41,319 nt of DNA, taken from NCBI GenBank assembly GCA_031257385.1, contig JAIROT010000022.1, forward strand, positions 1-41,319. The letters run 5' to 3'. The position numbers were made by a program, and so were the translations under genes. This document shows positions 19,012-41,319 of this stretch, piece by piece. Origin of the DNA: Treponema sp. (lineage in GTDB: Bacteria; Spirochaetota; Spirochaetia; Treponematales; Breznakiellaceae). The notes under the pieces are model-generated. The model worked only from the letters and a program-made list of their open reading frames with translations. It was not told the DNA's origin and ran no database searches. How positions within the stretch are numbered: the stretch's first letter is position 1; the number at the start of each line of letters is the position of its first letter.

Positions 19012-19539
19012 ATGAAAAAATTTGTTTTGTTGGTTTTTCTGTTATGCGCCGCCTGTCTTTCCGTGCAGGCCCAGCAGCTTACCCGTTTCGCGGTGGTGGA
19101 TCTTCCCAGAGTGTACAGCGCTTTTTTCAGGGATTCCCGCGCGGTGCGGGAATTTGAGGAAAAAAGCGCCCGTATTCAGAGCGACATAGACCGGATGACC
19201 AGGGAGATTCAGGATCTGAAATCGCGGCAGGCCGATGCGGCCCTGCGGGGGGATCAGAATGAGTCCTCCCGCCTTGAGAGCGAAATATACCGGAAATCGG
19301 AATTTCTCAAAGACTACTACCGCATAAAAACCACGGAGCTTGAGGATCAGAAGAACCGGCTTACCCAGTCAAGCGCCTTTTTGGATCAGGTGTACGACGA
19401 AATACGGTATATCGCCGAAAGCGAAGGCTACAGTATGGTGCTCAATCTGAAAGAAAACAGGGGGATTCTCTGGTACAGTCCGACGGTGGACATTACCGAC
19501 AAATTGATACAGAATCTACTGGACAAGGCAAGACGCTAG
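19012..19539 (+). CDS. skp: OmpH/Skp family periplasmic chaperone
   Basis: MKKFVLLVFLLCAACLSVQAQQLTRFAVVDLPRVYSAFFRDSRAVREFEEKSARIQSDIDRMTREIQDLKSRQ; downstream of bamA; RBS agaggt. Confidence 0.85.
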   Translation: MKKFVLLVFLLCAACLSVQAQQLTRFAVVDLPRVYSAFFRDSRAVREFEEKSARIQSDIDRMTREIQDLKSRQADAALRGDQNESSRLESEIYRKSEFLKDYYRIKTTELEDQKNRLTQSSAFLDQVYDEIRYIAESEGYSMVLNLKENRGILWYSPTVDITDKLIQNLLDKARR

Positions 19540-19645
19540 CAGCCTGTTACGCTTGTGGATTTTTGCGTTGCTTCGTGCCGTAAAAACCACGATTTATGGG
19601 CCGCTTACGCAGTTTGCGGGGTAAAAATCGCCTTGCGGGCGATTT
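19537..19645 (+). repeat. Dispersed palindromic repeat (family A' variant)
   Basis: TAGCAGCCTGTTACGCTTGTGGATTTTTGCG...CGATTTATGGGCCGCTTACGCAGTTTGCGGGGTAAAAATCGCCTTGCGGGCGATTT; starts at the skp stop codon. Confidence 0.8.
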
Positions 19646-19723
19646 AGTGTGCGGTCTTAAACGTCAGGAAGAATCAACCGCGGACGGGCAACACAGGCTG
19701 CACAGACAGAAAAGAGGTGAAAC

Positions 19724-24061: not shown

Positions 24062-24101
24062 TTTTTGAATATCGGTGTATCAGGGGGAAAATTAAACCCC
24101 C

Positions 24102-24246
24102 AGGAGCCTGTGGGACTTGTGGATTTTTGCGGCCTTTGACCGCAAAAACCCCCGATTTTTGGGCTCCTTTGGGAGTCTGCAAGGTAGAAAATGCACAAAA
24201 TAGTGCATTTTCTTTATCATTTGGGCTAAAGCCCCACAGACTCCCA
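24102..24246 (+). repeat. Full-length family A element: two abutting hairpins, about 145 bp
   Basis: Hairpin 1 GGAGCC...TTTTTGCGG-cctttga-CCGCAAAAA...GGCTCC; hairpin 2 GGGAGTCT...GAAAATGCAC-aaaata-GTGCATTTTC...AGACTCCC. Near-identical reverse-complement copy at 41201. Confidence 0.92.
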
Positions 24247-24265
24247 GGCGGCCTATTATCCGCGC

Positions 24266-33750: not shown

Positions 33751-33812
33751 GGCATACAATAACGCGGTAAAAAATAATAGGCAATGAGCCTCCGCGCGGT
33801 ATCTGGAACGCG

Positions 33813-33895
33813 GCAGCCTGTCGCGCGTAAGTTTTTACCTTACTTCGTATCGCAAAAACCGCGATTTACGGGCTGCTTACTCAGTTTGCAGGGTT
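33813..33895 (+). repeat. Family A' repeat
   Basis: GCAGCCTGTCGCGCGTAAG...CGCAAAAACCGCGATTTACGGGCTGCTTACTCAGTTTGCAGGGT; GCAGCC pairs with GGCTGC. Confidence 0.75.
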
Positions 33896-38524: not shown

Positions 38525-40942
38525 ATGGGCGACCGCGAGAGCCTTGAAAAAATCCTTGAAAGCCCCGAATTTGCCCCGAATATCGTGGTGAATCGGCTCC
38601 TGCCGGCGGAAGAGGGCGCTTTTGCCCCTTTCCCTCCGGATTTGGACCCCCGTATCGCCGGAGCCTTGCGCCGCCGTGGAATCGAACGGCTCTACACCCA
38701 CCAGGCCGAGGTCTGGGAGCGGGTACAGGAAGGCAAAAATGTCGTGGTAGTGACGCCTACCGCTTCGGGAAAAACGCTCTGTTACAACCTGCCCTGCCTC
38801 CATGCCCTGCTGCAAGACGGAAACGCCCGTTGTCTGTACCTCTTTCCTACCAAGGCCCTGTCCCAGGATCAGCAGTCGGAGTTGAACGGGCTTTCAGGCG
38901 GGGAAGGGGGGATAAATCTGAAAATCGCCACCTATGACGGGGACACGCCGGAAAGCCTGCGCGTTTCGGCGCGGGACACGGGGCGGATCATTATTTCCAA
39001 CCCGGACATGCTGCACGCGGGGATTCTCCCCAACCATCCCAAATGGATCAAGTTTTTTTCCCGCCTCAAATTCATCGTGATTGACGAGGTTCACGCCTAC
39101 CGGGGGGTGCTGGGGAGCCACGTTGCCAACGTGATCCGCCGCCTGCGCCGCGTGGCGGCCTTTTACGGCGCCTCCCCGCGCTTCATCCTGTGCTCGGCCA
39201 CCATCGCCAACCCCAGGGAGCTCTCCGAGGCCCTCATCGGTCTTCCGGTGGAGCTGGCCGACAAAAACGGCGCGCCCAGGGGTGAAAAACGGATCGTCCT
39301 TTACAACCCGCCGCTGGTGGACACGGTGCAGGGCATACGCCGCTCGGCGGTTACCGAAAGCCGCCGCTGGATGCTGGCGCTGCTCAGGGCGGGGATTAAG
39401 ACGATCCTTTTTGCGCATTCCCGCGTCAAAACCGAAGTGGCCGCTTCCTACGTAAACGAGGACCTTGCCAATATTTTTACCGACAATTCCCGTATCCGGG
39501 TGGAGGCCTATCGGGGCGGCCTGCTCCCCAACGAGCGCCGCGAGATTGAGCGGGGCCTGCGGGACGGCAGTATTCAGGGGGTGGTTTCAACCAACGCGCT
39601 GGAACTGGGCATCGACATCGGCGGCCTTGACGCCTCGGTGGTGGCGGGCTTCCCCGGCTCTTTCAACAGTTTCTGGCAGCAGTCGGGCCGCGCGGGCAGG
39701 CGGGGCGGTTCGTCGGTTTCGGTGTTTGTGGCCACAGCCTCGCCCATCGACCAGTTCATCATGAACGACCCGGACTGGTTCTTCCGCAAAAGCGCCGAAG
39801 AAGGCCGAATCGATCCGGACAATCCCTACATCCTCACCGACCACGTAAAGTGCGCCTGTTTCGAGCTGCCCTTCAATGACGAAGCTGTCGCAAGCGGGAA
39901 AGAACCCTTCGGCGGCGCGGCGGGAGAGGCGCTGGCCTTTCTTGAGGAGGCGGGCATTCTTAGGCATACCGGCGGCGCGGGCGGCGGGCGCTGGCATTGG
40001 GCGGACCGTTCTTTCCCCGCAGAGGGGATCAGCCTCCGCTCGGCCACCGCCGACAATGTGGTGATTATCGACGTAACCGCGGGGAGGAACGCCGTCATCG
40101 GCGAGATGGATCGGCCCAGCGCCAAAGAATTGATCTTTCCAAACGCGGTGTACATCCACCGGGGCAGACAATATATGGTAGAAGCGCTGGATATCGAAAA
40201 CCGCAAGTGTCTGGTTCGTGAAGCCGACGTGAACTACTTCACCGACGGGCTGGTGAAAACCGATATCAAGGTCTTATCCGAAGACGAACGCTTTGCCTGC
40301 GGCGGAGAGCCGGGCGGAGAGGGGGAGGCCGCCGCCGAAGGTGTTCTGGGAGACGTGCTGGTCCGTTCACAGGTTACCAAATTCAAGAAAATTCGTTTCC
40401 ACACCCACGAGAACATCGGTTACGGCGACGTCGTCCTGCCGGAAGAGGAAACCCAGACCAGGGCGCTGGCCCTGCTCTTTGATCCTGAGCGCGCCGGAGG
40501 AAAGGCGCTGGCGGCGCTGGACGAGCAGGCAGCCGGCGCGGCGCTTTCAGGCGCGGGAACCCTCATCCGTAATATCGCGCCGGTGTTCCTCCTCTGCGAT
40601 CCAAGGGATCTGGGCCTTGCGGAGCGGGTCCGCGACCCCCATTTCGGCATACCGGCGCTGTACGTCTACGACAAATACCCCGGCGGCACGGGCCTTGCCG
40701 AAAGCCTCGCCCCCCGCGCCGGCCTGCTCTTTGCCTCGATCCGTGACGCGATAGCGCGCTGTCCCTGCAAATCAGGCTGCCCCTCCTGCGTGGGCCCCGG
40801 CGGAAACAAGCGGGCGACCGCCGGATTTTTGGACGCCCTGTGCCGCCAGGAACCCGGGGGCTTGCGGGGTTTTACGCCTTTTTCCGGTGAAAAAAGACAC
40901 GGAACCCGCGGTAAACGGGCTCTTACGGAGTTTGAGGGGTAA
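38525..40942 (+). CDS. mrfA: DEAD/DEAH-box helicase with C-terminal DUF1998-type Zn-binding region (YprA/MrfA/Hrq1-like)
   Basis: TPTASGKTLCYNLP, VIDEVHAYRG, CSATIANP, QSGRAGRRG, C-terminal CPCKSGCPSCVGPGGN; the final about 30 codons lie in repeat sequence. Confidence 0.85.
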   Translation: MGDRESLEKILESPEFAPNIVVNRLLPAEEGAFAPFPPDLDPRIAGALRRRGIERLYTHQAEVWERVQEGKNVVVVTPTASGKTLCYNLPCLHALLQDGNARCLYLFPTKALSQDQQSELNGLSGGEGGINLKIATYDGDTPESLRVSARDTGRIIISNPDMLHAGILPNHPKWIKFFSRLKFIVIDEVHAYRGVLGSHVANVIRRLRRVAAFYGASPRFILCSATIANPRELSEALIGLPVELADKNGAPRGEKRIVLYNPPLVDTVQGIRRSAVTESRRWMLALLRAGIKTILFAHSRVKTEVAASYVNEDLANIFTDNSRIRVEAYRGGLLPNERREIERGLRDGSIQGVVSTNALELGIDIGGLDASVVAGFPGSFNSFWQQSGRAGRRGGSSVSVFVATASPIDQFIMNDPDWFFRKSAEEGRIDPDNPYILTDHVKCACFELPFNDEAVASGKEPFGGAAGEALAFLEEAGILRHTGGAGGGRWHWADRSFPAEGISLRSATADNVVIIDVTAGRNAVIGEMDRPSAKELIFPNAVYIHRGRQYMVEALDIENRKCLVREADVNYFTDGLVKTDIKVLSEDERFACGGEPGGEGEAAAEGVLGDVLVRSQVTKFKKIRFHTHENIGYGDVVLPEEETQTRALALLFDPERAGGKALAALDEQAAGAALSGAGTLIRNIAPVFLLCDPRDLGLAERVRDPHFGIPALYVYDKYPGGTGLAESLAPRAGLLFASIRDAIARCPCKSGCPSCVGPGGNKRATAGFLDALCRQEPGGLRGFTPFSGEKRHGTRGKRALTEFEG

Positions 40943-40975: not shown

Positions 40976-41319
40976 ATGAGTCAAAATCTGCGGGACAGGC
41001 TGCGGCGGATTCAGCACGGCAAAAGGGACGAAGCCGCGCCGGTAAAAAAATCCGCCGGAAAGGCTGACCGTTCCCCTTTCGACGCGGGGGGCTGGGTCTC
41101 CGTGGGAAGCTATGCCCTGAAGCGTGAGGTTTCCGCCGAACTGCCGCCGGATTTTCCCTCTGAATTTTCCTCCGCGCTGCCCCTCCTTGTTCCCGACCTT
41201 AGGAGTCTGTGGGGCTTTAGCCCAAATGATAAAGAAAATGCACAATTTTGTGCATTTTCTACCTTGCAGACTCCCAAAGGAGCCCAAAAATCGGGGGTTT
41301 TTGCGGTCAAAGGCCGCAA
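40976..41319 (+). CDS. N-terminal part of a putative YprB/MrfB-like RNase H-fold exonuclease, running off the window
   Basis: MSQNLRDRLRRIQHGKRDEAAPVKKSAGKADRSPFDAGGWVSVGSYALKREVSAELPPDFPSEFSSALPLLVPDL..., RBS ggagg, immediately downstream of mrfA. The assignment rests largely on gene neighbourhood. Confidence 0.5.
   Translation, partial: MSQNLRDRLRRIQHGKRDEAAPVKKSAGKADRSPFDAGGWVSVGSYALKREVSAELPPDFPSEFSSALPLLVPDLRSLWGFSPNDKENAQFCAFSTLQTPKGAQKSGVFAVKGR
41201..41319 (-). repeat. Family A full-length element (partial at window end), inside the putative mrfB reading frame
   Basis: One clear mismatch over about 118 nt against the reverse complement of 24102-24246; reads in frame LRSLWGFSPNDKENAQFCAFSTLQTPKGAQKSGVFAVKGR. 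Confidence 0.92.

Follow-up and report, generated by a model that had tools for sequence, protein, structure and literature searches.

Palindromic inserts that keep the reading frame of conserved proteins have, to our knowledge, been regarded as peculiar to Rickettsia and Wolbachia, and we know of no enzyme that mobilises them. These Rickettsia palindromic elements (RPEs) are palindromes of 100–150 bp that lie in frame in genes (PMC3767692, PMC10969869). In Coxiella burnetii, QMITE1/2 occasionally form in-frame MITE fusions in ORFs (PMC5896051), and 4-bp direct repeats have been reported for the IS1182 member ISPse1 (PMC3281130). Here, we describe an insert in the mrfB gene of a spirochaete that is a copy of a 140-bp palindromic MITE with terminal inverted repeats.

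The window analysed is the entire 41,319-nt contig C113 (JAIROT010000022.1) of the Treponema sp. assembly GCA_031257385.1, a draft genome of 308 contigs and 3.11 Mb. mrfB lies directly downstream of mrfA, and its frame shows no stop from the start codon through the window end, with element sequence from position 41203 onward (Table 1). The repeat interior forms the 3′ end of the window, and many other contigs of the genome likewise end in the repeat. The window ends at 41319 because the short-read assembly broke the contig inside the repeat.

Table 1 Position of the mrfAB genes and of the MITE and its relatives in the 41,319-nt window
Feature	Position	Strand	Basis or remarks
mrfA, DEAD/DEAH helicase with MrfA Zn-binding domain	38525..40942	+	PF00270 4e-31; PF09369 (MZB) 9e-17; HRQ1 winged helix 2e-7
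mrfB (YprB-type exonuclease gene), 5′ part	40976..41319	+	Remainder on contig C254 (L103/L168); alignable with same-genus homologues before and after the insert
Left copy of the duplicated target, TTAG	41199..41202	+	Comparison with the empty site of relatives L231/L232
MITE copy in mrfB, sense, first 117 of 140 bp	41203..41319	+	Last 23 bp open C254
Complete intergenic MITE copy	24100..24247	-	Core 24104-24243; duplications 24100-24103 and 24244-24247 (CTGG/CTGG, element orientation)
Unit A, 71 bp, inverted ends GAGTCTG..CAGACTC	24173..24243	-	Solitary copy on C31 (L196), CTGG/CTGG duplication
Unit B, 63 bp, GAGCCC..GGCTC	24104..24166	-	Solitary copy at C244:571 (L164), CCAG/CCAG duplication
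Old diverged superfamily member, right end ..AACAGGCTG[CTAG]	19536..19682	-	nhmmer profile match, 66 bits
Diverged superfamily member, fragment	33812..33894	-	nhmmer profile match, 28 bits, weak

The original prediction had recognised here a structured dispersed repeat, in frame within the gene and nearly identical to the reverse complement of an intergenic copy. Both observations hold: the two copies show 1 internal difference (loop A/T) in 117 bases, plus 2 in the flanking 4-bp duplication, and other in-gene copies extend the first observation to the genome as a whole. Its borders need adjustment. The predicted start, 41201, falls in the duplicated target at 41199-41202, and the core begins at 41203; similarly, the intergenic copy placed at 24102-24246 is there, but its full extent with the target duplications is 24100-24247. 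The length of 145–147 bp, or 49 codons, was an overestimate, since the element proper has 140 bp and, with the 4-bp duplication, gives a net gain of 144 bp, or 48 codons.

Contig C254 starts within the repeat, and its frame, KENAQFCAFSTLQTPKGAQKSGVFAVKGRKNPQVPQAPGRREINAGASARPPAPEDLLFFDLETTG..., is the same as that in the window. As the original prediction would require, this frame runs into FFDLETTG and the RNase_H_2/DEDDh exonuclease domain, and the open frame contradicts the alternative of a simple disruption of mrfB. The mrfB junction spans two contigs, whose pairing is based on gene uniqueness, frame and alignment: C254 gives the sole strong PF13482 match in a search of the genome, and the second match, on C258, is weak, partial and covers only the start of the profile. 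Joined, C113 and C254 encode a protein of 470 aa whose RNase_H_2/DEDDh domain is intact (PF13482, 1.4e-24). The insert translates as RSLWGFSPNDKENAQFCAFSTLQTPKGAQKSGVFAVKGR(KNPQVPQAP), with the junction reading LVPDLRSLWGF.., and is positioned in the linker ahead of the catalytic exonuclease domain; peptides of the element include ENAQFCAFSTLQTPK and SGVFAVK.

All 24 aligned same-genus MrfB proteins, which align on both sides, lack the insert, as the original prediction would require of treponeme homologues, and the two closest relatives read VPDL-ARAAIKDGAAPPAPEDLLFFDLETTG at the site. When the insert is excised, VPD[L/P]GRREINAGA..PPAPEDLLFFDLETTG of this protein aligns with VPDLARAAIKDGA..PPAPEDLLFFDLETTG of the relatives. 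At the nucleotide level, excision of the element and one duplication leaves GTT CCC GAC C(T/C)T GGG CGC, which matches GTT CCC GAT CTT GCG CGC of the relatives codon by codon. The target repeats at mrfB differ, with TTAG on the left versus CTGG on the right, the latter on C254, and the original target was presumably TTGG.

The element boundaries are [CNNG]GAGTCTGTGGGGCTT...CAAGTCCCACAGGCTC[CNNG], with the inverted-repeat ends GAGTCTGTGGG / GAGCCTGTGGG and a 4-bp CNNG target duplication, mostly CTAG. Of 37 copies, 18 have identical 4-bp repeats, whereas 6.1 would be expected from shuffled pairing (2000 shuffles, maximum 13). Three 29–30-mers of the element have 81, 77 and 62 matches in 3.1 Mb; the 81 belong to the central 29-mer, which, reversed, has 0 matches in the genome, and the repeat is therefore far beyond chance. 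The genome-wide total is roughly 100 copies and fragments; in ~1.1 Mb of contigs, profile searches that also counted diverged relatives detected 133 without overlap. The element consists of two palindromic units, A and B, each of which is also found alone with its own duplication. Unit A alone gives a net gain of 75 bp (25 codons), and unit B alone one of 67 bp, which is not frame-neutral. A common deletion form, with a net gain of 112 bp, is frame-breaking; it was absent from genes (0/15 vs 4/26), a difference that is not significant (p = 0.15). At contig ends, some element sequences carry G or C runs far above the usual GGGGG (L192:20-116, L164:571, L166:1-88), which suggests slippage or a sequencing artefact.

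The element consensus has no stops in four of the six frames, a number of open frames reached in 9/5000 dinucleotide shuffles and 10/5000 palindromic surrogates. Its RNA is predicted to fold at -74 kcal/mol (z -8.75), and relatives in other spirochaetes share its layout and show compensating changes in the stems. The stem covariation, 63 double-change cells versus 29.6 +/- 4.0 after shuffling and <=23 in slid controls, is compatible with RNA selection or with DNA-level upkeep of inverted repeats and does not separate the two. The very strong fold, its covarying stems and the use of other copies as an insertion site by a group II intron would fit removal of the insert after transcription or its bypass, through splicing or frame-skipping, in the manner of group II introns or bypassed hairpins. 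However, the 140-bp element has no splice signals, an Rfam search of the window gave no match, and conserved open frames would be unnecessary if the insert were removed. We consider this reading highly improbable.

The group II intron is found at one fixed element point, ..TTTTCTACCT^TGCAGACTCC.., immediately past the hairpin of unit A. Its 5′ side is seen at no fewer than seven left-hand contig ends (L142:14136, L178, L116, L117, L121, L157, L163) and its 3′ side at no fewer than five right-hand ends (L114:15-91, L172, L129, L192, L152), and at L114 the end of an RF00029 domain V/VI match coincides with the intron-element junction. The MITE acts as a dispersed homing site for this intron.

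Besides mrfB, at least seven further copies are located in frame in genes of this genome, a lower bound, since many contig ends could not be paired. Four of them have both flanks in one contig: those in the DEAD-box helicase (C3), YqeC (C101), CYTH/cyaB cyclase (C142, where the element is antisense) and PseG-like (C102) genes. Three of these four have identical target duplications and one has a single mismatch; both flanks have coding-type codon usage in a single frame, and the family models match, the PseG match being weak. Across contig ends, the Opp/Dpp ABC ATPase gene (C181 and C164) has an ATAG/ATAG duplication and a shared AAAA variant, and the DUF58 gene (C9 and C115) has a CCAG/CCAG duplication and a shared variant. 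The PseG-methyltransferase gene holds two inserts, the second just before methyltransferase motif I (C102 and C153, CAGG/CAGG). The in-gene copies use three reading frames, two sense and one antisense. Three more such copies were found in other Treponema genomes, the MAGs Cd354_bin69 and Cd354_bin14, which we take to be from termite-gut samples. In Cd354_bin69, a histone-deacetylase gene carries the element in frame and gives a single PF00850 match that extends across it; Cd354_bin14 has nine copies, of which one keeps the frame of a DUF815 gene and another that of a hydrolase-like gene with no Pfam match.

If short-read contigs were misjoined in the repeat, the gene-repeat fusions would be unreal. 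The draft is fragmented and many of its contigs end in the repeat, and the copy at C153:876-1023 (L143) is flanked by different target duplications, CTAT on the left and CAGG on the right, which could come from recombination between copies or from mis-assembly. An assembly artefact is nevertheless very unlikely, since four in-gene copies lie within single contigs with identical or nearly identical duplications, independent MAGs behave alike in other genes, and the mrfB site fits the empty sites to the codon.

It is also conceivable that the genes are inactivated and that their frames are open only since the insertions are recent, as judged from the near identity of the copies. The CYTH and helicase inserts inside catalytic domains and the state of ispH, with its insertions and a gap of ~60 aa, would be expected of pseudogenes. 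On the other hand, the flanking frames are uninterrupted by stops or frameshifts, and both sides give strong domain matches. The inserts are located in linkers or between conserved motifs, as in MrfB, in the ABC ATPase (between Walker A and the Q-loop) and in the helicase (between PTFELCSQ and GNPGR), and four frames open over 48 codons are unusual for the element itself. We consider inactivation unlikely, though it deserves serious attention, and the insert-bearing proteins would keep their function.

Several candidates were not counted as in-frame insertions. The essential ispH gene is split by element copies (C110 end and C244 start; L128, L164), and both halves enter the element in the same frame; a simple insertion was rejected, since the halves lack ~60 aa, the conserved DATCP region among them, and the C110 junction carries a second, nested repeat. 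ispH may hold two inserts and a short unbinned middle contig. The second dispersed repeat, TTTATTCGTGCTGAGGGGTTTAATACCC(AAGAACCCGCCTTGCGGCGGG), is located at C110:5481-5544 (L128) and in about 25 other places. For the right half of an AMP-ligase gene (C100), no partner was found, and it was left out of the count. The random-ORF spans C214, C248 and C281 antisense were rejected because codon usage assigns coding to the other frame or strand. Several genes stop precisely at the edge of the element (L155:2981, L160:6572, L127:11261, L158:12351); since an NTAG target supplies the TAG stop, the element would also trim or reset gene 3′ ends.

At the end of contig C220 lies an insertion sequence that shares inverted repeat and target with the element at its own end, [CTAG]GAGTCTGTGGGACTTTAAGAAAAG. 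This inverted repeat, GAGTCTGTGGGACTT at CTAG, adjoins an IS1182 transposase fragment (NF033551, 1.4e-14). The fragment is truncated at the contig end and broken in frame, and we therefore infer an active source. It is the single copy of an IS1182 transposase in the genome search, DUF772 (the N-terminal transposase domain) was looked for and not found, and the element itself has no IS1182-type transposase ORF. The shared end makes an IS1182-type IS the likely source of element mobility. Two regions between inverted element ends that resemble an IS (C50, C79) carry TPR, MGMT or aminotransferase genes and no transposases. Searches of plasmids, phages and IMG/VR gave no element match.

We are confident, if short of certain, that the insert belongs to a non-autonomous MITE, probably moved in trans by an IS1182-type transposase and frame-neutral in genes. 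The transposase would mobilise the element, which would insert at CNNG, best at CTAG, and duplicate the 4 bp. Because of the 144-bp gain and the four stop-free frames, the host frame would stay open, and a 48-residue, probably loop-like peptide would be added to the protein. Copies in surface loops or linkers, as ahead of the MrfB exonuclease domain, would be tolerated and kept; selection would remove most other in-gene copies, so that most surviving copies are intergenic. More speculatively, and we rate this as rather doubtful, selection may have shaped the element to be harmless in genes through its 144-bp gain, stop-free frames and hydrophilic, loop-like peptide, so that it supplies conserved gut-treponeme enzymes with new 48-residue loops, some with gained function.

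Like the RPEs, above all RPE-1, -2 and -3, the element is a stop-free palindrome of 100–150 bp, in frame in unrelated genes and also intergenic. The original prediction was correct about this behaviour but not about kinship. The size class and behaviour, which are those of RPEs (PMC10969869, PMC3767692), would suit a true RPE acquired by a spirochaete, but a family 22-mer, by whose occurrence we judged kinship, matched only spirochaete records and none in Rickettsia among 85,462 species. The element further differs from RPEs in phylum, in its terminal inverted repeats, 4-bp CNNG duplication and matching IS1182-type end, and in its use of both orientations and three reading frames in genes. Acquisition of an RPE is thus extremely improbable; the element works like an RPE, qualifies as a MITE and, judged by its distribution, is a separate MITE-type family. 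Our search of the open-access literature turned up no description of it from spirochaetes. RPE-like behaviour, known mainly from Rickettsia, is now seen in spirochaetes, and the visible transposition signature, target duplication and candidate parent IS offer a concrete mechanism that makes the RPE question testable. Annotators should note that one element accounts both for contig ends and for odd inserts of 48 residues in these genomes.

The element resembles QMITE1/2 in being non-autonomous, with inverted ends, direct repeats, dozens of copies and occasional in-frame ORF insertions; however, QMITE fusions mostly affect gene ends or hypothetical genes, whereas the Treponema inserts lie inside conserved-enzyme domains with a net gain of exactly 48 codons. 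It shares its inverted repeat at CTAG with the IS1182-type IS of this genome, and 4-bp direct repeats with those reported for ISPse1, but has no transposase, and its sequence beyond the ends is unrelated to the IS. As with ERIC/BOX/REP-type palindromes, it is small, structured and dispersed; unlike these mostly extragenic repeats, it shows a transposition signature and repeated in-frame insertions in genes.
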